In this document: positions 18,479 to 30,675 of the stretch, piece by piece
Layout of the letters: each line of letters opens with the position of its first letter
Position numbering within the stretch: the first letter of the stretch is position 1
NCBI GenBank assembly: GCA_012521015.1
Contig: JAAYNE010000145.1
Span: 1-32,357 of the forward strand
Direction of reading: 5' to 3'
DNA length: 32,357 bases
From: Clostridiaceae bacterium
Lineage (GTDB): Bacteria; Bacillota; Clostridia; Saccharofermentanales; DTU023
Translations under genes and position numbers: made by a program
Notes under the pieces: generated by a model
Seen by the model: the letters and a program-made list of their open reading frames with translations, nothing else
Databases searched by the model: none
What the model was told of the DNA's origin: nothing

Positions 18479-18751
18479 TGCAGGAAATCTTGTGTTAATA
18501 AGATTGGTTGAATTTATGATAATATAATTACGAGTAGCAGGCGATATGTATCTATTTCTCCAATACCTTTGGGCAAATGAGATTCTAGTTTTAAGTATCA
18601 TGTAATCCTTTAAAATATTTAATTTTTTTTACTATCACATTATGCCTTCGCCCATATGAGAAAAAGCAATAAAATTGTTTAGAAATTGGAAATAAGTAGG
18701 ATAAACCTGCAACAAGCGATACCTTAAAGCTTTACTTTGGAGGGTAGGATA

Positions 18752-21700
18752 ATGAGTTATAGTATCATGCTGTCAATATTACTTTACATTTGTGGTTGTT
18801 TTTATATGGTTTTTGGCGCATGTACAATAGCTACTAACGCAAAAAGCAAAGTCAACAGGTTGTTTCTAGTTCTAACAATTTCATTAGCAATTTGGTCATT
18901 TTCACATTCTATTTCAAATTCAGCACCTACATCGGAAATTAGTGCTTTTTGGAGATCTTTCTCCGCTTTCGGTTGGGGAGTTTTTAGCAGCATTTTATTA
19001 CATTTTATCTTAGTTCTGACAAAAATTAAAAGTCGATTAAATAAGCGAAATATGTTGATTGTACTTTATTTACCCGCTTTCATTAATATAATTTTATTTG
19101 GACCATATGGATGCCTTATAGAGAAACAATATAAAATGATACAAACTGACTTTGGTTGGATGAACATGGCTCCTATGTATACTGCAGGAATTTGGCTTAA
19201 TCTATACTATGTTATATTTTCGATTATAAGTCTTATATTACTTATTAATTGGTGGAGAAAACTTGAGTCTCATTCCCCTGAGAAGCGGCTGGCAAAACAT
19301 TTTTTAATATCTGTAATATTTCTTTTTGCTATAGAAGCTGCAATAGATATGTTACCTGATATTCTTGATAAAAAATTTTTTCCTAAATTGCCCGTTCTAT
19401 TTCTGTTAGTTCCGACAATAATGCTGTTTGTAGTATTAAAAAAATTTGGACTACTTAAAGGAAGAAGAAGAAGAAAAACATACACTCTTTCGGAGATCAA
19501 AAACAACCTAGATGGAGACCGATTGCGCTTGTTTCAAACATCAACAGTCATTTTTCTGCTGGGTGGCGCACTATCCTTTTTTGTAGGATATTTTGGCATG
19601 AAAGGAATGTTAGAATATGAGCTTTTGATCGCTGTGACTTTATTGTTAATTGGAATATTTGCAAGATTTATTCCGCTCATAACGAAAAGGCATTCTATTC
19701 AGAATGCTATCTTCTTGGCAATATGCTCTTTAGGTACGTTTTATTTTATGATAGTGAATGCTAAAACAGGAGCGTTAACGATATGGTCAATATATATCTT
19801 GTTTCTTCTGTTTAACGTTATACTTGATGGTAGAATTCATTCTATTATCTTTACCGTATTTTGTATATTAATTCAAGTCGCTTTTTGGATAACCAATCCG
19901 AAAATTTCTGTTATTATCGATGGAAATGAGTATTTAACAAGAATTTTTATTATTATACTTTCTTATTTCGCTGTGCATTATCTGACAACTGAATATGCTT
20001 TAAAGGTGAAGGATTACAAAAGGTTTGCAAGTGAACAGGAAGTACTTGAAAAAATTTCTTCTAATTTTATCTCGAGTAATAGAGAAAACGTTAAAGAGAA
20101 AATTGATGAAATGTTAGAAATGACTGATGAAATACTCGACTTTAATCATGCCTATTTAGTCAAATTTGATACGAATTGCGATGATGCAACAATTCTTAAT
20201 GCACGTGTGAAAGACGCGGGGAGTGAATCATTTCCCTATCGTCCGGGAATGAAAGTAAAGACAGTAACTTTGCCCATGATTAAGCTTCTGATCGATCAGG
20301 ATATGCCTCTAATGTGTGAGGATATCGCGAACGTTTCCCCTGAAGAAGACGGAGAACTAAGGAGATTTTTCATGTCAAGAGGGATACTCTCTTATTTTAT
20401 ACTGCCAATAAAAGTTGACGAAGAAATAGAAGGAATGTTTGTTGTTGAATACAAGGACCCAATTGATATAAGTCTTGCAGAAAGTCGATTATATTTTTTA
20501 AAAATGATTGTAAATATATTGGGGGATACAAGGAAAAAGACTTTGTACGAGGAAAGACTATATAATTTTGCTTATTTTGATGAAGCCACAAAATTAGCAA
20601 ACAGGAATATGCTGAAAAAAAGACTTAACCAAATCATAGATGATAAAAAAGAATCAGGAAAAACAGCAGTTTTAGATATTAAACTTAAGAACCTTAGGAT
20701 GATTAAAGATACCTTTGGTCAAGGTATAGGGGAGAAGATAGTGAAAAAATCGGCGATAATCCTCAAAAATCTGTTTGAGAAATGTTGTATTATCGCAAGG
20801 TCAGGTGAAGGAGAGTTTGTTGTTATTCTACCAACTGTGGAAAATACCAAGCAGATAGAAGAATGTGCGCAGAGATTAGTTGACTCATTTTCTCGTCCTA
20901 TATTAACCGAGACAGGAATAGAAGCATTATTTGTTGTTATCGGTATAGGTATATCCGTATATCCGGATAACGGACGAGATGCCGATACTCTTTTGAAGAA
21001 TGCTGATCTGGCAGGATATGAAGTGAAAAATGCCAGCGATAAAATTGTTTTCTATACAAAACAAATGGAAAGTCATATTGCGGAAAACACTTTGGTCACG
21101 AATAGCCTTTTTAAATCATTACAAAACAAAGAATTGTTTCTGGAGTTTCAACCACAAATCAGCTGTGATACGGGGAAAACTGTAGGGATTGAAGCTTTGC
21201 TCAGATGGACGAGTGACAGCAACAAACGTGTACCGCCGGATAGATTTATCCCTATACTTGAGCAAACGGGATTGATTTACGGTGTGGGGCTCTGGGTGTT
21301 GGAACAAGCTTTGCAGGAACATAAAAGTCTTATATCAAAGGGATTTCCACCTCTTCGCGTTTCTGTCAACTTATCGGTTGTACAATTCCAAACAAAAGAT
21401 CTTATTACTGATTTTATGGAAATTATAGAGGGGAGCGGGGTAGATCCGCAGTATATTGAGCTGGAGATTACGGAAAGTTTGTTTTTGGAAAATCCTGAGG
21501 ATGTAATTGAAAAACTGTACAAATTGAAAGAGTTGGGAGTAAGTATAGCCATAGATGATTTCGGCAGAGGGTACTCATCATTAAATCGACTAAATTTAAT
21601 ACCTTTTGACCGAATAAAAATAGACAAGGGTATTATAGATAATATAGATTTAGAAAGAAAAAGAGCTCCTGTAATGGCGAGTATTGTTTTATTAGCAAAA

Positions 21701-21847
21701 GCCTTCAAGGCGGGTATTACGGCCGAAGGTGTGGAAACAAAAGAGCAGGCGGATTTTCTGAGAAGCATAAACTGTGATGAAATACAGGGCTACTATTTTT
21801 CGAGGCCCCTGTCGATGAAAGCACTGGAAGTATTTCTTAAATCTTAA
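18752..21847 (+). CDS. Membrane GGDEF/EAL protein, probable c-di-GMP phosphodiesterase
   Basis: About 1031 aa. Two blocks of membrane helices (about residues 1-230 and 265-420; the first resembles a 7TM histidine-kinase-type sensor) precede a GAF-like domain (about 430-590). A GGDEF domain follows (about 605-770) whose active-site loop is SGEGEF and whose metal Asp region is altered, so it is unlikely to make c-di-GMP. The EAL domain (about 785-1030) keeps GIEALLRW, VNLSVVQ, ELEITES, IAIDDFGRG, DRIKIDKG, AEGVET and QGYYFSRP, so it should hydrolyse c-di-GMP. Start at 18752 is set by GGAGGGTAGGA just upstream; a TTG at 18737 is in frame but overlaps that site. Signal input is unknown. Confidence 0.93.
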   Translation: MSYSIMLSILLYICGCFYMVFGACTIATNAKSKVNRLFLVLTISLAIWSFSHSISNSAPTSEISAFWRSFSAFGWGVFSSILLHFILVLTKIKSRLNKRNMLIVLYLPAFINIILFGPYGCLIEKQYKMIQTDFGWMNMAPMYTAGIWLNLYYVIFSIISLILLINWWRKLESHSPEKRLAKHFLISVIFLFAIEAAIDMLPDILDKKFFPKLPVLFLLVPTIMLFVVLKKFGLLKGRRRRKTYTLSEIKNNLDGDRLRLFQTSTVIFLLGGALSFFVGYFGMKGMLEYELLIAVTLLLIGIFARFIPLITKRHSIQNAIFLAICSLGTFYFMIVNAKTGALTIWSIYILFLLFNVILDGRIHSIIFTVFCILIQVAFWITNPKISVIIDGNEYLTRIFIIILSYFAVHYLTTEYALKVKDYKRFASEQEVLEKISSNFISSNRENVKEKIDEMLEMTDEILDFNHAYLVKFDTNCDDATILNARVKDAGSESFPYRPGMKVKTVTLPMIKLLIDQDMPLMCEDIANVSPEEDGELRRFFMSRGILSYFILPIKVDEEIEGMFVVEYKDPIDISLAESRLYFLKMIVNILGDTRKKTLYEERLYNFAYFDEATKLANRNMLKKRLNQIIDDKKESGKTAVLDIKLKNLRMIKDTFGQGIGEKIVKKSAIILKNLFEKCCIIARSGEGEFVVILPTVENTKQIEECAQRLVDSFSRPILTETGIEALFVVIGIGISVYPDNGRDADTLLKNADLAGYEVKNASDKIVFYTKQMESHIAENTLVTNSLFKSLQNKELFLEFQPQISCDTGKTVGIEALLRWTSDSNKRVPPDRFIPILEQTGLIYGVGLWVLEQALQEHKSLISKGFPPLRVSVNLSVVQFQTKDLITDFMEIIEGSGVDPQYIELEITESLFLENPEDVIEKLYKLKELGVSIAIDDFGRGYSSLNRLNLIPFDRIKIDKGIIDNIDLERKRAPVMASIVLLAKAFKAGITAEGVETKEQADFLRSINCDEIQGYYFSRPLSMKALEVFLKS

Positions 21848-22330: not shown

Positions 22331-23716
22331 ATGAGATTTAATTCAAAGGCAATTTCGAAAGTAATTCGTCGTGGTTTTTCCTTACGATTGGTTATTTTTT
22401 TTATCATGTTTTCTCTTATTATCCAATTTTCTTTTACCGGTATTCGACGTGTGTCCGCACAACAAAACGATGGAAAAGGAATACCGATCATTATCGTACC
22501 CGGCATAATGGGCAGTAGACTCTATGATGATAAGCACCAGTTGGTATGGCTTGAAGATAGCCAAATTGATATTCTTTTTAAATCATTACCTGGTATCGGT
22601 CAAAAAATCAAATTTTCTTCTGAAAACAACAAGATGAAGGTCCGCGGGAATTACAATAAACAGAATCATATGTCAAAGGAGTTACGGGAATACGGTACCA
22701 GAAACGAGTATAAAGCGATTGTTGATTTCTTGATTGAGGAATTCCCAGAACGAGATATTTACTTTTTTTCATATGACTGGCGGCTGTCTGTCCTCCAAAT
22801 TGCAGATAAGCTAAATAAGCTCATTTTGTGCGTAACGAAATATGGACCAGGCAAGGTTGATATTGTCGCACACAGTATGGGAGGTCTCGTTGCCTCAGCA
22901 TTCATGAAAAAGTTTGCCGACGGATCAGCCCAACAGGTGGGAAAAATAATTACTTGTGGCACTCCTTACGAAGGATCTCCAAAAACTTTTTACGTCTTAC
23001 TACCTGATCGGATCCAGTTTGACTTAAAAAAAATAGATAAAATCCTCTTGCTAGCCGACTCTGTCAAGTTTGACCCGGAAAAAATAGTGAAAATATTCTT
23101 TGATATATTTTCTCGTGTGTTTGCCGGCCTCACGTTCGAAGTGAAATGCTCTTTTCCATCAATGCAACTGCTGGTCCCATCGCTACAGTATATGGAGAAA
23201 TATCCGTTTGTTTCTTCTTATGTTGAGGGCGATGAATACAGTGCATTTTCCATTGCTAGAGACAACTATGCCGAGTTCCTTTCCATGATTTTCTCATCCA
23301 ACAAAGAAGGCGAAAAAGAGTTTAATTTTGATATCTACAACTATATAACCTCCGATGCAAATGATATTCCCTTAACTCACTATGGCAAGCGATACAATTA
23401 TCTAGCATCACTACCAAACACGTATTTTATTGTTGGGATTAATCAAGATACTATAAGTTCTTTGGGTGTAGAAAGGAATATATCCAATCCCTCCTCCTTC
23501 TGCTCAAGAGTTGAAGATATCAAGATTGACACAAATGGAGATGGGACAGTTCCCTATGACTCTGCCACGATGATGGGCGTTTTGCCTCATTTATTGAGCC
23601 GGACAGGGCGATATTTCGAAATTGCTCAGGATCACGGAGGAACTATTAATCACTATAAAGCTAGGTCAGAGATTAAGAGGATGTTGGAAGAGCCGACAAC
23701 AGCATCAGTGCCTTAA
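22331..23716 (+). CDS. Secreted LCAT-like alpha/beta-hydrolase (lipase/acyltransferase)
   Basis: A 461-aa exported hydrolase. A basic N-terminus and hydrophobic stretch (about residues 19-37) end in VSAQQ, a likely signal peptidase site. The mature domain has IPIIIVPGIMGSRLYD (oxyanion region), SYDWR, the nucleophile in VAHSMGG (Ser about 182), the acid in NGDGTVPYDSA (Asp about 404) and the base in QDHGGTINHY (His about 435), the pattern of the lecithin:cholesterol acyltransferase/PDAT-like lipase family. It would act outside the membrane on phospholipids or other acyl esters. The frame continues for 55 sense codons after the TAA at 23714-23716, so this form may be truncated. Confidence 0.87.
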   Translation: MRFNSKAISKVIRRGFSLRLVIFFIMFSLIIQFSFTGIRRVSAQQNDGKGIPIIIVPGIMGSRLYDDKHQLVWLEDSQIDILFKSLPGIGQKIKFSSENNKMKVRGNYNKQNHMSKELREYGTRNEYKAIVDFLIEEFPERDIYFFSYDWRLSVLQIADKLNKLILCVTKYGPGKVDIVAHSMGGLVASAFMKKFADGSAQQVGKIITCGTPYEGSPKTFYVLLPDRIQFDLKKIDKILLLADSVKFDPEKIVKIFFDIFSRVFAGLTFEVKCSFPSMQLLVPSLQYMEKYPFVSSYVEGDEYSAFSIARDNYAEFLSMIFSSNKEGEKEFNFDIYNYITSDANDIPLTHYGKRYNYLASLPNTYFIVGINQDTISSLGVERNISNPSSFCSRVEDIKIDTNGDGTVPYDSATMMGVLPHLLSRTGRYFEIAQDHGGTINHYKARSEIKRMLEEPTTASVP

Positions 23717-23884: not shown

Positions 23885-24436
23885 CTCAGTTCACAATAAC
23901 ACACAGATCCTCACAGTGTAGATTGTTATGTGGTCTGTTCAGCAGGAAGTGAGATTATAATCTGAATTAAATTATTGTATAATATGCTACACTGTACTTG
24001 TTATATTTTCACTATATTACACTTGTTATGTCTCATAATAGATTTTTTCTGTGAAAAAATGGTGGAATTTGAGTACAATAATATTCAATTATTGAAATTA
24101 GTGGCAATTAGTGGCAATAAGTATATTAGTGGCAATAAGTATAACAATATTCTTATTTATTGCAATTCAACTGATCAAGTAATCAAGCATTAATAGTTTA
24201 ATCAATAATTTATATTTAAGCTATGAATGAGGATGGTCTTTTGAGGTATGAGTGTGTAGTTTGATAATGATTTATATTAAAGCTATTATCAAGTGCCTTT
24301 AAGATTTAATTCTTTATTGAAAGCTTAGATAAAATTGTCGAAAAATAATGAATACGTTGAAACTGTATTCTTTAATATTAAGCGAATCAAGCGAATCATA
24401 AGATGCTAAATAAGAGGCTAAATAGGAGAGAATTAT
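23885..24436. other. AT-rich intergenic region with tandem duplications
   Basis: About 550 bp with no credible gene; short frames here lack ribosome sites and run through simple repeats. Contains the 24097-24142 tandem repeat, two copies of TTTATATT(T/A)AAGCTAT (near 24210 and 24271), and AAGCGAATC repeated near 24380. AGGAGAG precedes the dehydrogenase ATG. Confidence 0.6.
24097..24142. repeat. 18-bp tandem repeat, 2.5 copies
   Basis: ATTAGTGGCAATAAGTAT is present twice perfectly (24107-24124 and 24125-24142), preceded by a 10-bp partial copy (24097-24106). Confidence 0.9.
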
Positions 24437-25522
24437 ATGAGAATCACAGTTATAGGTGCAGGAAATTCGGGTTTAGCAATGGCAGGGCAACTGGCAATTG
24501 CCGGACATGATGTGATTCTTTGGAATCGTACCGAAAAGAATATTGAAAAAATCATGCAAACGAAAGTTATAAATATGAAGGGCGTGATTGAAGGCAAAGC
24601 GGTTCTCAAAGATGCAACTTCAGATTTAAGTTTGGCCTTGGCCGAACCGGAAATTATTATTATTACTCCGCCAGCTTTTTCGCATAGAGAATTGGCGATC
24701 CAATTTCGTGAATATTTGCAAAGTGAACCTTTGATTATTCTCAGTCCGGGACGTACCTGTGGGGCAATTGAATTCAGTCATTATTATAATCAAGGCAATA
24801 ATTCGAATCGACCTCTGATTACGGAAGCTCAAACAGTAATTCATACTTGTCGTAAATTGTCAGAAGACCTTGTTCATTTATATGCAATTAAAAGTGCAGT
24901 TTATTTATCAGGTCTGGGTACTGTGAGCAATGAAGAAATTTATAATAGACTGCCACCGGATTTGAAACGGAATTTTCAACCTGCAGATTCTATGATCCAA
25001 ACTTCGATCGGCAATGTAGGTATGATTTTGCATTGTGCGCCCTTACTATTGAATAGTGGTAGAACCGAGGATCAATATTCGGATTATCTTTATTATCATC
25101 AGGGAATTACACCACGAATTGCCGAATATTTGGAGGCAATGGATCGGGAGAGAATGCAAGTTGCATTGGCATTGGACTATAAAGTTGAGAGTACAAGTGA
25201 TTGGCTTGCTCGCAGCTATCAATCACCGGGTAATAATCTTTATGAAAAAATTCAGAACACCCATGCTTATTCGGAAATATTAGCTCCGCCAACCTTGAAA
25301 CACCGTTATGTTTTTGAAGATATTCCATATGGATTAGTGCCTTTGGAAGCCTTGGGTCACATGTTCGATATCGATATGAGTTATACAGGCTTGATTATTG
25401 ATTTAGGTTCGAAACTGATGAATGAAAATTTCCGTGAAAGTGGGAGAAATTTGCGCGAGGTAGATTTTGTAGATTTCTTCCAAAGGCTTGTACGAAAGGA
25501 TGACACGGATGAGATCTTCTGA
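24437..25522 (+). CDS. Opine-type (octopine/nopaline family) dehydrogenase
   Basis: A 361-aa NAD(P)-dependent dehydrogenase of the octopine/nopaline dehydrogenase fold. The N-terminal Rossmann domain begins MRITVIGAGNSGLAMAG. The C-terminal helical domain has GNVGMILHCAPLLLN (family NxxxHxxP-like region) and YVFEDIPYGLVPLEALG, the conserved D-x-P-Y-G-L-V-P segment. Family members reductively join an amino acid to a 2-oxo acid, or run the reverse; related folds reduce other oxo/imino acids. AGGAGAG precedes the ATG. Its end overlaps the start of the B12-dependent mutase by 14 bp, implying coupled translation and one pathway. The substrate is unknown. Confidence 0.88.
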   Translation: MRITVIGAGNSGLAMAGQLAIAGHDVILWNRTEKNIEKIMQTKVINMKGVIEGKAVLKDATSDLSLALAEPEIIIITPPAFSHRELAIQFREYLQSEPLIILSPGRTCGAIEFSHYYNQGNNSNRPLITEAQTVIHTCRKLSEDLVHLYAIKSAVYLSGLGTVSNEEIYNRLPPDLKRNFQPADSMIQTSIGNVGMILHCAPLLLNSGRTEDQYSDYLYYHQGITPRIAEYLEAMDRERMQVALALDYKVESTSDWLARSYQSPGNNLYEKIQNTHAYSEILAPPTLKHRYVFEDIPYGLVPLEALGHMFDIDMSYTGLIIDLGSKLMNENFRESGRNLREVDFVDFFQRLVRKDDTDEIF

Positions 25523-27401
25523 CTTGAAGGCGGTATACGGTTTGCTTAAACCTGCGAATGATGCACATACAATAGGTTTGCAAACTGCCGGTGAATTACT
25601 GTCAGAATGTGGTTTCCGAGTTGTTATAGCTGATGAAAAAGTGCAGGAAGCATTAAGCTATTATTATGATCATACGGCAAGGGCGGAAGTGATTAACTGG
25701 ATCCGAGCCAATCAGATAAATCGTTTAGGTATCAGCTATCGACTTGATCATACAGATGCAGTCAATATGTTGGGTTATCTTTTAGAAGAACTTAAACAAC
25801 AAAGAATGCTCAAATTTCAAGACGGAAATATTGATTTGTTGTTTTTTGGCGGTTTGCCTCAAACTTGTCGGGAAGTTGAGCGAGAGTTTTCCGGAATTTA
25901 TACATGCTTTCAAGGCGGAGAAACAATTGGTGAAACATTATCTTTAATGCAAGTTCCGTCGAATTTGATTCCGCAAGATATGTTGGAAGTCAGTCAATAT
26001 GATGATACTTTACATCAATTCGGCCAAGAAATAATCGAATCCGGTGAATACCATTCATATAATGTTAAATCTGCTACCGACTATCAAGGTTTCGGTACAA
26101 AGCAAGATTCTTTACTGAAAAGACTCAAGGCAACTGTAAATGATTGTGGTAGCAATGTCAGACCTTTGATAAGAGCACATGTTGGACCTTATCATTCAGG
26201 TCAAAAAAGAGAAGAAGCTGTACGTGAATGTGGTTTGTGGGTGCAGCAGTTAGCAGAGCGCGGTTTGCTGGATATTTTGTCTTTGGGAACTTCGCAGTTG
26301 TCGCAATCAAATTTTGCGGAAAATTGGGCGGGCAAAATAAATGGTGGAGGAGTTCCAGTTAATTCGGAAGCGGATTATCGTTATTTATATGAACAATCCA
26401 GACCACTTTTGATGCGGACGTATGCCGGCACAAAAGGCATTCCACAGTTAGCGCGAATGTATGAAAATACAATCAATATTGCTTGGCATGCACTATCTTT
26501 ATGGTGGTTTAATCAATTGGATGATCGCGGTCCATATGATTTATATACCAATTTGCAAGAACACTTTAAAACCATAGACTATATTGCAACTACTGATAAG
26601 CCATTAGAAGCCAATGTATCACATCATTTCGCATTTAGGGGTTCCGATGATGTAACGTATATTGTGGTTGCATTTTTAGCAGCTAAGCTGGCTAAAAAAC
26701 ATGGCATAAAAACTTTTGTTTTACAAAATATGCTCAATACACCGCGCAGTACGTGGGGTGTACAGGATTTAGCAAAATCAAGAGCCTTGCTGAAATTAGT
26801 CAGAACTCTGGAAGATGAAAATTTTAAAATAGTATTCCAGCCCCGGGCCGGTCTTGATTATTTTAAGCCTGATCTAAATGAAGCCAAGATTCAACTGGCT
26901 TCGGTTAGTTGCCTGATCGACGATATTGAGCCACATAATCAGACAAATCCTGATGTTATTCATGTCGTTAGTTATTCCGAGGCTTCTCATTTGGCAACTC
27001 CGGAAATAATTAATGAGAGTATCCAGATTACTTTGCATACCATAAAAGAATATCGTAAAGCTCGTAATAAAGGCTTGATTGATAATATGAGCAAAAACCC
27101 TGATGTTAAGCAACGTGAGCAAGAGCTCTATATGAATTCATGTAGATTGCTCAAAACATTAGAAGACAATATAAAAGATCTTTATACCCCGGAAGGTTTT
27201 TTCTTAGCTTTTGCTGCCGGCTTTTTTCCTGTACCTTATCTTTGGGGCGAACAGGATAAATTTTCATTGGCGATAGATTGGCAAACGAAAATAATTCGCG
27301 GTTCAATGCAAGTTGTAGATGAGAATGGAGTTGCTCTTGAGATGTCTCAACGTATGAATCAAGCTATTGAGAATCTTAAGCAGGCGAAGCAATTATTGTG
27401 A
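25509..27401 (+). CDS. Fused cobalamin-binding / glutamate-mutase-like enzyme
   Basis: About 630 aa. The N-terminal 140 residues match the B12-binding subunit of glutamate mutase: DAHTIG (the DxHxxG cobalt-ligand motif), GISYRLD at the SxL position, and FFGGLP at the GG position. The rest resembles the large TIM-barrel subunit (MutE/GlmE): NIAWHALSLWWFNQLDDRGP, VSHHFAFRGSDDVTY, LQNMLNTP and a C-terminal FFPVPYLWGEQ segment. Known enzymes encode these as two proteins (small then large); here they are fused. An adenosylcobalamin carbon-skeleton rearrangement of an amino acid or derivative is inferred. ATG at 25509 with AAAGGA upstream is preferred over the TTG at 25488. No reactivating factor gene is nearby. 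Confidence 0.8.
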   Translation: MRSSDLKAVYGLLKPANDAHTIGLQTAGELLSECGFRVVIADEKVQEALSYYYDHTARAEVINWIRANQINRLGISYRLDHTDAVNMLGYLLEELKQQRMLKFQDGNIDLLFFGGLPQTCREVEREFSGIYTCFQGGETIGETLSLMQVPSNLIPQDMLEVSQYDDTLHQFGQEIIESGEYHSYNVKSATDYQGFGTKQDSLLKRLKATVNDCGSNVRPLIRAHVGPYHSGQKREEAVRECGLWVQQLAERGLLDILSLGTSQLSQSNFAENWAGKINGGGVPVNSEADYRYLYEQSRPLLMRTYAGTKGIPQLARMYENTINIAWHALSLWWFNQLDDRGPYDLYTNLQEHFKTIDYIATTDKPLEANVSHHFAFRGSDDVTYIVVAFLAAKLAKKHGIKTFVLQNMLNTPRSTWGVQDLAKSRALLKLVRTLEDENFKIVFQPRAGLDYFKPDLNEAKIQLASVSCLIDDIEPHNQTNPDVIHVVSYSEASHLATPEIINESIQITLHTIKEYRKARNKGLIDNMSKNPDVKQREQELYMNSCRLLKTLEDNIKDLYTPEGFFLAFAAGFFPVPYLWGEQDKFSLAIDWQTKIIRGSMQVVDENGVALEMSQRMNQAIENLKQAKQLL

Positions 27402-27677: not shown

Positions 27678-28436
27678 ATGTTTGATTACACAGGAAGAGT
27701 AGTAGTATTATCAGGAGCTTCATCAGGTCTCGGAAAACAAATGGCACTTGCTTATGCAGATCAAGGTGCTGACATGGTTATCATGGCAAGAAGATTAGAG
27801 AGACTCGAAGAATTAGCAAAAGAAATTGAATCTAAAGGTGTTAAATGTCTGGCTATTCGCTGCGATGTTACAGACGTTGAAAGTGTAAATTCTGCAGCTG
27901 CTGAAGCGAAAGAAAAAATGGGTAGAATTGATGTAGTGGTTAACTGTGCAGGCGCATCTGCTAATGCCGGCGTTTTAGAAATGACGGATGAAGAATGGGA
28001 TTTCACCATTGAAACTGATATGACCAGTGTTTTTTATGTAACACGTGCTTTTGGTCAATATATGAAAGAAGCCAATTATGGCCGTATTATCAACATTTCA
28101 TCAATGTACGGTTTAGTCGGCAATACAGCTATCGATACAGTTGCATACCATACTTCAAAAGGTGGCGTTGTAAACTTCACACGTGCTGTTGCTGCTGAAT
28201 TAGCAAGATACAATATTACATGTAATTGTATTTGCCCGGGTTATTTCGAAACCGAATTGACAACTGATACATTAAATACAGACGAATTCACAACTTACAT
28301 GAAAGCTACAGTACCTCTGGGACGCTATGGTAAAAGTGGTGAATTGAATGCCAGTGCTATCTTCTTAGGCAGTGAAGAAGCTTCATACGTAACCGGTGTC
28401 ATTTTACCGGTCGATGGTGGATATACCTGCGTATAA
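27678..28436 (+). CDS. SDR-family NAD(P)-dependent oxidoreductase
   Basis: A 252-aa classical short-chain dehydrogenase. The cofactor motif is SGASSGLGKQ, followed by VNCAGAS (NAG-type), ISSMYG (catalytic Ser), YHTSK (catalytic Tyr-x3-Lys) and CPGYFETEL. Overall it resembles gluconate 5-dehydrogenase and 3-oxoacyl-ACP reductase-like enzymes; the substrate may be a sugar acid or other secondary alcohol. GAAAGGA precedes the ATG. It has its own promoter and a strong terminator, so a metabolic link with the upstream opine/mutase pair is possible but not shown. Confidence 0.9.
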   Translation: MFDYTGRVVVLSGASSGLGKQMALAYADQGADMVIMARRLERLEELAKEIESKGVKCLAIRCDVTDVESVNSAAAEAKEKMGRIDVVVNCAGASANAGVLEMTDEEWDFTIETDMTSVFYVTRAFGQYMKEANYGRIINISSMYGLVGNTAIDTVAYHTSKGGVVNFTRAVAAELARYNITCNCICPGYFETELTTDTLNTDEFTTYMKATVPLGRYGKSGELNASAIFLGSEEASYVTGVILPVDGGYTCV

Positions 28437-28627: not shown

Positions 28628-29464
28628 TTAATTAAGTGATATTTTATTTTTTGAAGCTTTATAGATCCAGATAGACATTATAATCCAAGTGACAAAAGTT
28701 GTAAGAATGAAGCCGATTCCGATAATTTTAATATCATTACTTTGAGCACTGAATACTTTACTCATTTCAGAAATCATGCTTTCAAAGACAATTTCGAATT
28801 GAAAATCCGTGTCGAAATTTTGAGGTAATCTGATTGAAATCGGAATAAGTAACATACTGATTAAGGTTATTATTTGCATTGCTATGTAATGTAAAAAATA
28901 AACCAATATAGGACCACCGACACCGAGCTTTTTGAAGATAGCTTGAGAACCGATTGTGATCGCAAACATCATAGAGATAATGTGTTCAAGTCCGGTATAA
29001 ACTACAAGCAGGAAAATTAAACCGATAAGTTTAGGTTGAAGGAAAAAGTCTTTAACCGTGCTGAAAGCGATATGAAACGGTAACTTCATCTCAACTGCAG
29101 TATTTGAGACAATAAATATTGTGATACCGATTGCAAAAACAAGTACGGTTAAAATATGATAAGTAAAATAATATGCCAGACGTGAACTGAAAACAGCAGA
29201 TTCCTTTGCAGGTATTGAGCGAAAAAAATATGATCGTTTGCCTTGTTGATTTTGATAATCATAAATTACTGAAAATACGATCATTGCTATACAACTAAGA
29301 ATGAAACCTAAAATAGTTATTGCATTTACAAATTGAACTACGCCGGGAATTCTCGTTGCCGAAACAAACAAACCAAGTAAAACCGCACCTATCATTGCTG
29401 CGTAGAAATAACGTGCGATATACCACAATTCTTTGACCTGATATTTATATAATTTGGAAAACAT
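28628..29464 (-). CDS. ABC-2-like membrane permease
   Basis: A 278-aa membrane protein with about six helices and no catalytic motif. It begins MFSKLYKYQVKELWYIARYF, typical of the permease in YtrA-type GntR/ABC operons. It follows the ATPase gene by 53 bp on the same strand, so it should form the membrane part of that transporter. In related systems such operons respond to cell-wall antibiotics, but the substrate here is unknown. Confidence 0.8.
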   Translation of the reverse strand: MFSKLYKYQVKELWYIARYFYAAMIGAVLLGLFVSATRIPGVVQFVNAITILGFILSCIAMIVFSVIYDYQNQQGKRSYFFRSIPAKESAVFSSRLAYYFTYHILTVLVFAIGITIFIVSNTAVEMKLPFHIAFSTVKDFFLQPKLIGLIFLLVVYTGLEHIISMMFAITIGSQAIFKKLGVGGPILVYFLHYIAMQIITLISMLLIPISIRLPQNFDTDFQFEIVFESMISEMSKVFSAQSNDIKIIGIGFILTTFVTWIIMSIWIYKASKNKISLN

Positions 29465-29517
29465 TGAAAACTCCTTGTCTATTAAATTGAAGATTATTTA
29501 GTGTTTATTATTGAGGA

Positions 29518-30210
29518 TTATTGGAATATTTGCTCGAACAACTCATTAATACCTTTTCCGTGTTGTTCACGTAAATCATCAGTTGAACCTTTGATTTTGA
29601 TCTGACCGGAGTCAAGAAAGATAACCGAGTCGATAATATTTTCGATATCATTCAATAAATGCGTAGATACAATCATCAGAGCGTCTTCAGAAAAACCTTC
29701 AATCATGCTGCGCAAAATAATCTTTCTGGAAGCCGGATCAACTCCTGAAATCGGTTCGTCAAGAATATAAATTTTTGCTTCACGTGACATGGTAAGTAAT
29801 ACTTGAACTTTTTCTCCCATACCTTTTGACATTTCAACCAACTTTTGTTCAGATTTTAATTTAAACAAGTCAAGCATTCTGAAAGCTTTATCCTTATTGA
29901 AATCGGGAAAAAAATCATCATATAATTTTATGATTTGTTCAGCTCTTAGATTATCGCTGATGTAAGGTTTGTCGGATAAATAAGAAACGATTTTTCTACT
30001 TTCTAATCCCGGTTTAAGACCATTAATCAGAACTTCACCGGAATATGCCATATCGAAAGCACCTATAATTCGCAGTAAACTGCTTTTGCCTGATCCGTTC
30101 GGTCCTACCAAACCTACTATCTGGCCAGAATCAAGCTCTAGACTCAGATTATTAATTGCCTGGAACTTTCCGTATCTCTTACATAAATTATTAATTAGAA
30201 TTGTTGACAT
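29518..30210 (-). CDS. ABC transporter ATP-binding protein
   Basis: A 230-aa ATPase. Walker A is GPNGSGKSS, Walker B is IYILDEPISGVDP with catalytic Glu, the H-loop is VSTH. The signature is MSKGMGEKV, a non-canonical form common in the YtrB/CcmA-like branch where LSKGM(xx)K replaces LSGGQ. It pairs with the permease downstream and is preceded by the GntR regulator gene, with 72 bp between. Operon order is regulator, ATPase, permease. Confidence 0.93.
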   Translation of the reverse strand: MSTILINNLCKRYGKFQAINNLSLELDSGQIVGLVGPNGSGKSSLLRIIGAFDMAYSGEVLINGLKPGLESRKIVSYLSDKPYISDNLRAEQIIKLYDDFFPDFNKDKAFRMLDLFKLKSEQKLVEMSKGMGEKVQVLLTMSREAKIYILDEPISGVDPASRKIILRSMIEGFSEDALMIVSTHLLNDIENIIDSVIFLDSGQIKIKGSTDDLREQHGKGINELFEQIFQ

Positions 30211-30282
30211 TTTATGATAACCCCTCGATTCTCATGAATTATTAATTTTTCTTAATTTAACATTGTTGAACTTTATTCTGAC

Positions 30283-30675
30283 TTAATGATTTTCCTGCTG
30301 ATTCGTTATTTCTTCTGAATCTAAGCAACGTTGGACTAAATCCAAAATTTCTCTTTGTTCTATATCAATGGCTTGCATTTGTATAACAAAATCTCTCGTT
30401 TTATTCTCTGCCATTTCATGTTTTAAATTATTGATTTTTTCTTGATTTTGCGTGATAAACCTGCCTGTAGTTCTTTGGCTGTAGGCTAAACCGATATTCT
30501 CCAGTTCAACCAAAGCACGCTGAACAGTATTGGGGTTTACGGCAAAATCCAAAGCTAAATTTCTCACGCTTTCAATTTTTTCTCCTGCCTTCCAAGCACC
30601 GTTGGCAATATATGTCTTAAAAATTTCAATTAATTGCAAATAGATTGGTTGACTTTCGTCAAATTTATACGACAT
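30283..30675 (-). CDS. GntR-family regulator, YtrA subfamily
   Basis: A 130-aa repressor with an N-terminal winged helix: QPIYLQLIEIFKTYIANGAW, then ESVRNLALDFAVNPNTVQRA with the recognition helix, and the RFITQN wing. The short C-terminal tail lacks a ligand domain, the hallmark of the YtrA group, which controls an adjacent ABC transporter. A near-perfect palindrome overlaps its own promoter, so it is expected to repress the whole operon. TTGGAG precedes the ATG. Confidence 0.92.
   Translation of the reverse strand: MSYKFDESQPIYLQLIEIFKTYIANGAWKAGEKIESVRNLALDFAVNPNTVQRALVELENIGLAYSQRTTGRFITQNQEKINNLKHEMAENKTRDFVIQMQAIDIEQREILDLVQRCLDSEEITNQQENH

Follow-up and report, generated by a model that had tools for sequence, protein, structure and literature searches.

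The window, the whole stretch of 32,357 nucleotides analysed here from a Clostridiaceae bacterium, encodes an opine-type dehydrogenase (ODH) followed by a B12-dependent mutase-like protein (MUT). These proteins are encoded side by side and co-evolve in loci from many phyla, and in numerous Bacillota the pair lies behind a c-di-AMP riboswitch. Taking the evidence together, we lean towards a pathway in which an adenosylcobalamin mutase and a reductive opine dehydrogenase cooperate to produce a compatible solute.

The pair as such is not new. In 2009, Zhang, Rodionov, Gelfand and Gladyshev predicted a B12-dependent family with an N-terminal B12-binding domain that was present in 11 genomes of four groups, invariably beside a pfam02317 gene and with D-Ala-D-Ala ligase and asparagine synthase in its vicinity, and to which no function was assigned (PMC2667541). 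Neither homology to glutamate mutase nor a riboswitch was reported for this family (PMC2667541). Based on the N-terminal B12 domain and the adjacency to pfam02317, the window pair belongs to the same family by description; the ligase and asparagine synthase vicinity recurs in relatives (25 and 14 loci, respectively) and is absent beside the window pair, where no amide-forming partner was found. According to a sequence-only reading of the window, no described pathway was known to join an opine-family dehydrogenase with a glutamate-mutase-like rearrangement; the adjacency of the two genes has, however, been in print since 2009 (PMC2667541). The literature search retrieved no paper linking an opine dehydrogenase with glutamate mutase, an aminomutase or a compatible solute, nor any report of a c-di-AMP link, although ODH may figure in the riboswitch target lists of Block (2010) and Nelson (2013). 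Compared with the 2009 description, the present analysis covers about 130 loci in many phyla and adds a GlmE-like structure, c-di-AMP control (34 genomes) and GlmL, MscS and racemase partners; what appears to be new is the fold assignment of MUT, the regulation by c-di-AMP and the operon logic.

Layout, conservation and co-evolution of the pair

The range 24437-27401 that had been given for the pair is correct, as is the earlier observation that the dehydrogenase ends 14 bp inside the mutase gene: the ODH stop codon occupies 25520-25522 and MUT starts at ATG 25509, in a frame that is open back to TTG 25488. The features are as follows:

24424..24430, + strand: probable ODH ribosome-binding site, AGGAGAG, 6 nt before the ATG (sequence)
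24437..25522, + strand: ODH, opine-type dehydrogenase of 361 aa, with a Rossmann NAD(P) domain and an Octopine_DH helical domain
25494..25499, + strand: probable MUT ribosome-binding site, GAAAGG, within ODH, 9 nt before ATG 25509 (sequence)
25509..25522, + strand: ODH/MUT overlap of 14 bp (sequence)
25509..27401, + strand: MUT, one-chain B12-dependent mutase-like protein of 630 aa (family alignment, AlphaFold2 model, fold matches)
25530..25958, + strand: cobalamin-binding Rossmann domain at the MUT N-terminus (motifs DAHTIG, SYRL and GG)
26097..27365, + strand: predicted GlmE-like barrel and C-terminal part of MUT, model residues 197-619 (VIA-align, hhalign)

The overlap suggests that translation of the two genes is coupled. 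Both frames are conserved, with 30-92% identity over about 130 loci, which is far beyond chance.

MUT is carried by 86 of the 398 genomes of a phylum sample, and 80 loci came from a scan of public genomes; their hosts belong to Bacillota, Planctomycetota, Spirochaetes, Bacteroidales, Acidobacteriota, Azoarcus and an archaeal MAG; many of the hosts are anaerobic Bacillota. Some loci of the two samples may represent the same species. Among 130 loci, ODH was present in 109, upstream of MUT in 106 of the 109 and separated from it by 100 nt or less in 99 (median -4 nt). When the 21 loci seemingly devoid of ODH were re-checked by tblastn, 7 had an ODH masked by a longer shadow ORF, 2 were truncated at contig ends and 9 lacked it. 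With 3 contigs that start inside MUT left out, both genes occur together in 118 of 127 testable loci; the sequence-only reading, which would have been refuted by homologues that are not co-located elsewhere, is supported on this point. Furthermore, the distance matrices of the two proteins correlate (r 0.56, with a maximum of 0.07 in 500 shuffles) and in 98 of 99 loci the nearest neighbour by ODH falls into the same subfamily of MUT, evidencing that the two proteins co-evolve.

Some loci deviate in structure. In a Tissierellia-like group (L070, L071, L072, L074 and L075) MUT is kept and ODH is absent from the locus; in L070 and L071 two T-box leaders are located just after MUT. In genome G129 (L032, 8466-10369) MUT occupies two overlapping frames of 395 and 244 aa, which may reflect a frameshift, an assembly error or a real split, and it is likewise split (253 and 343 aa) in the archaeal MAG (L127).

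MUT as a predicted one-chain B12 mutase

The cobalamin-binding motifs that had been recognised at the mutase N-terminus (DxHxxG, the S/L pair and GG) are present as D18-x-H20-x-x-G23, S76-Y-R-L79 and G114-G115, the second of them being an SxxL variant and not SxL; H20 and G23 are invariant in the 67 homologues aligned. In the short subfamily (group L033-L050) the Asp of DxHxxG, in the column of residue 18, is mostly Cys (10 of 13), which is unusual near the axial His. In Pfam searches the window MUT matched the B12 domain weakly (E 0.001, under the cut-off) and gave no match to MutE. Among 16 family members scanned, the B12-binding domain PF02310 was matched in all 16 (best E 1.9e-13) and PF06368 MutE in 12 (best 1.7e-8), the cut-off of the latter being just passed by some short-subfamily MUTs and not by the window protein. 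Searches of the PDB found nothing with the MUT sequence alone and no match below 0.001 with the family profile A2, and B12 domains were found with profile A1.

The AlphaFold2 model of MUT, built from 67 homologues (pLDDT 92.1, pTM 0.91), was compared with known structures by VIA-align. The top match was GlmE (1cb7_B; Z 27.9, 375 residues, 3.3 A) in a tie with lysine 5,6-aminomutase alpha (Z 27.2), followed by ornithine 4,5-aminomutase (Z 25.1) and methylmalonyl-CoA mutase (Z 20), and Foldseek agreed on the fold. The barrel was also co-linear with the MutE profile in hhalign (prob 93, E 3.8e-7), so that the MutE/GlmE-like barrel anticipated from the sequence is recovered both by the predicted model, which ranks GlmE first, and by profile comparison. 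Family profile, profile comparison and model together support a GlmE-like barrel and the placement of MUT, as a single-chain B12 mutase, in the glutamate-mutase superfamily.

The likeness to glutamate mutase GlmE/GlmS (MutE/MutS) comprises the best barrel match, the co-linear profile, the B12 motifs, the correspondence of MUT E491 to GlmE E330 and, in some operons, a GlmL partner. In contrast to the separate B12 and barrel subunits of glutamate mutase, MUT is one chain of 630 aa with the B12 domain first, shares about 14% identity and has another gene context. The active site differs as well. In the MutE profile A3, numbered as C. cochlearium GlmE, residues R66, R100, R149, E171, Y177, Y181 and E330 are invariant; in MUT the counterparts of R149 (R303) and E330 (E491) are also invariant. 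In the sequence-profile alignment, which is not a superposition, R222 and H224 stand near R66, and R222, H224, R303 and Y305 near R66/R149. The position of R100 is taken by Ser, Thr or Ala and that of E171 is without a conserved acidic counterpart in the profile alignment, and the complete arginine claw (R66/R100/R149) with E171 is not found in MUT. Glutamate mutase proper was ruled out as the identity of MUT by the claw residues together with the architecture. The view of MUT as a one-chain version of a two-subunit enzyme holds for the single chain and the superfamily, but the name glutamate mutase is too strong considering R100, E171, the N-terminal position of the B12 domain and the tie with lysine aminomutase.

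Two MUT subfamilies, short and long, can be distinguished that share only about 30% identity, and the residues R222, H224, Q263, Q266, R303, Y305, W326, W333, D338, R340, E367, N369, H372, H373, R377, D381 and E491 are invariant across both. This conservation points to one shared reaction, probably on a substrate other than plain glutamate.

The lysine 5,6- and ornithine 4,5-aminomutases (KamDE and OraSE) belong to the same barrel superfamily and have the DAHT(I/V/L)G-type B12 motif in common with MUT. A PLP aminomutase was nevertheless rejected, as the lysine that we take, from the structure of OraE, to bind PLP sits in an insertion that the MUT family lacks and PLP chemistry is thus not expected; no conserved Lys was found in residues 16-32 of MUT in the family alignment.

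ODH and the opine dehydrogenases

ODH matched Octopine_DH PF02317 in Pfam (E 4.2e-42), and its closest solved relative is N-(1-D-carboxylethyl)-L-norvaline dehydrogenase (CEDH, 1bg6, PF02317; E 3e-53), with homology over the whole length. It displays the features of PF02317 opine dehydrogenases, a Rossmann GxGxxG and an Octopine_DH domain with the catalytic His, Arg and Asp; these residues (His199, Arg290 and Asp295) are invariant in 102 homologues and correspond by alignment to His202, Arg292 and Asp297 of CEDH. Unlike CEDH, which carries Asp after strand 2, ODH has N30-R31 at this point. Since this NADP-type motif replaces the acidic residue of NAD-type enzymes, the use of NADP(H) as cofactor is suggested. 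A second difference from CEDH is that ODH is nearly always located beside a B12 mutase in the loci examined.

ODH and the opine-metallophore dehydrogenases belong to the same superfamily. This kinship, together with the ATP-grasp and DegT partners of some loci, could accommodate a CntM-like logic with an opine-type metallophore or other secondary metabolite as the product, a role that we consider very improbable given that the operon partners include no nicotianamine-synthase-like protein and no recurrent metal transporter, and that no metal riboswitch was found in the leaders scanned.

A c-di-AMP riboswitch upstream of the pair

A c-di-AMP riboswitch (RF00379) was first sighted next to ODH in locus L033. 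The search covered 80 Bacillota genomes, i.e., 79 relatives carrying MUT and that of the window, and revealed a total of 110 aptamers, of which 36 precede the pair in the same orientation. These 36 come from 34 of the 80 genomes and from 16 families, whereas about 0.06 genomes would be expected by chance. Within 10 kb of the pair, no aptamer lay downstream of it or in the opposite orientation in these 80 genomes. Of 26 mapped loci, 20 have ODH as the gene next downstream of the aptamer (median distance 96 nt), and in 3 others this place is occupied by an ORF of 333-358 aa that matches the ATP-grasp partner found there. Each of the five leaders inspected contains, between an aptamer and ODH, a coding-strand hairpin that resembles an intrinsic terminator; in L042, which contains two aptamers in tandem, the hairpin found lies between them. 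An aptamer followed by a terminator-like hairpin ahead of ODH is the layout expected of an OFF switch.

The riboswitch is frequent in short-subfamily MUT loci only. In the long subfamily, to which the window protein belongs, one clear case (L080) was detected among about 22 loci scanned. RF00379 was not detected in the window or its genome, and the five upstream regions aligned for the window's genus-level group showed only AT-rich similarity and no conserved leader RNA. The cobalamin riboswitch RF00174 gave no match on the pair in any locus scanned.

In many Bacillota the operon of the pair is under a c-di-AMP riboswitch like osmotic genes, and on this basis a compatible solute is the most likely role of its end product. 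A parallel is offered by an osmolyte mutase, which we take to be a radical-SAM lysine 2,3-aminomutase. This mutase is under a tandem Na+/c-di-AMP riboswitch with a terminator and the aminomutase product is an osmolyte (PMC9337991). The likeness lies in the control by a c-di-AMP riboswitch and terminator, whereas MUT is a B12-type mutase associated with an opine dehydrogenase.

Operon partners

The genes in the same apparent operons as the pair (212) were compared with those elsewhere in the same loci (1227). Ddl-like ATP-grasp ligases account for 28 of the 212 operon genes (25 loci) vs 9 of 1227 elsewhere, and AsnB-like amidotransferases for 14 vs 2. These two classes occur together in one locus only and thus look like alternative last steps that would form an amide. 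GlmL was found 6 times in operons and 0 times elsewhere, the protein of L043 scoring 597 bits vs the NCBIfam GlmL cut-off of 475; no match above the cut-off was obtained in the window's genome, which is 89.5% complete. MscS-type channel proteins (5 vs 2) are present in six long-subfamily loci and in none of the short-subfamily loci, and Orr-like racemases were counted 4 vs 2 times. The DapF, YicC and gmk neighbours of L048 were discarded as partners, as they seem to belong to the general backbone of the chromosome. In five related genomes (L055-L058 and L093), MUT is followed by genes for a flavin amine-oxidase-like protein and a large membrane protein.

c-di-AMP riboswitches also govern cell-wall genes (PMC9337991, PMC3766115), which makes a cell-wall precursor the main rival to a compatible solute. 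According to this alternative, an unusual amino acid or opine would be built into peptidoglycan by Ddl-like and Mur-type ligases under c-di-AMP control, together with wall remodelling. The Ddl-like ligase of 25 operons would suit such a role, and so would the MurD-like gene in the operons of L039 and L050 and the amidase-like gene after MUT in L033-L035; however, MurD is limited to those two loci and the amidase to those three, the ATP-grasp partners are heterogeneous and fall well short of the Ddl cut-offs (138 and 203 bits vs 243), AsnB-like enzymes take the place of the ligase in other operons and the MscS-type partners fit osmotic control. On this evidence we regard a cell-wall role as unlikely.

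The partners also bear on a catabolic role, in which the pair would act in amino-acid fermentation, after the manner of the pathways of glutamate mutase or of the ornithine or lysine aminomutases, and ODH would run in the oxidative direction. Its appeal comes from the superfamily of MUT, GlmL in 6 operons, the Orr-like racemase in 4 and the anaerobic Bacillota among the hosts. We consider it improbable in view of the c-di-AMP control in 34 genomes, the biosynthetic, amide-forming ligases in the operons, the NADP-type motif of ODH and the aerobe Azoarcus (L122) among the hosts; moreover, no catabolic enzyme recurs among the operon partners.

Proposed pathway to a compatible solute

In the compatible-solute pathway that we favour, ODH and MUT would be two consecutive enzymes of one biosynthetic route. 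MUT would bind adenosylcobalamin and carry out a radical 1,2-shift on an amino-acid-type, poly-carboxylate substrate within its GlmE-like barrel, and ODH, either ahead of this shift or following it, would join an amino group to a 2-oxo acid with NADPH as reductant, yielding a secondary amine (opine). An amide cap would then be added in many relatives by the Ddl-like ATP-grasp ligase or the AsnB-like amidotransferase, and in many Bacillota the c-di-AMP riboswitch would shut the operon off, as with osmotic genes. The end product would be an amino-acid derivative that is metabolically inert, frequently carries an amide cap and builds up under osmotic stress. This reading starts from the observed pairing, co-evolution, domain architecture, leaders with riboswitch and terminator, and operon partners; B12 use in vivo, the direction and order of the two reactions, substrate and product, and the osmotic role are inferred. 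Points against it are that c-di-AMP riboswitches act on cell-wall genes too, that the riboswitch is frequent in the short subfamily only, that MscS-type proteins were found in long-subfamily loci and in none of the short ones, and that GlmL is in the operon of 6 loci only. For the window's own pair this role is inferred from its relatives, because no riboswitch or GlmL was detected in its genome and no amide-forming partner is adjacent.

A bolder version, which we offer only tentatively, is that the mutase acts on the opine itself and that the two enzymes define a widespread, hitherto undescribed and c-di-AMP-switched class of compatible solutes consisting of isomerised opines, possibly of beta-type or amide-capped iminodiacid structure.

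With this proposal, the orphan prediction of 2009 becomes a pathway that can be tested. In Bacillota, the main second messenger of bacterial osmotic control would govern a new metabolite made jointly by a B12 radical enzyme and an opine dehydrogenase; related pairs occur in Spirochaetes, Planctomycetes, Bacteroidales and others. If true, B12 supply would be linked to osmotic fitness and one more reaction would join the small set of adenosylcobalamin mutases.

Neighbouring genes in the window

An SDR-family dehydrogenase is encoded at 27678-28436, 276 nt after MUT, and is kept at this position in the closest relatives (L051-L054); its best NCBIfam match is gluconate 5-dehydrogenase-like, just under the cut-off. 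A GntR regulator, an ABC ATPase and a membrane protein form one apparent operon on the minus strand (28628-30675) that converges on the SDR gene. The gene that directly precedes the pair, 720 bp off and in the same orientation, encodes an LCAT/lipase-like alpha/beta hydrolase (22331-23716), and the 720-bp AT-rich spacer between it and ODH contains short tandem direct repeats (ATTAGTGGCAATAAGTAT, 2-3 copies) at 24097-24142. Further upstream, 18737-21847 encodes a 1036-aa GGDEF/EAL protein with an N-terminal 7TM region.
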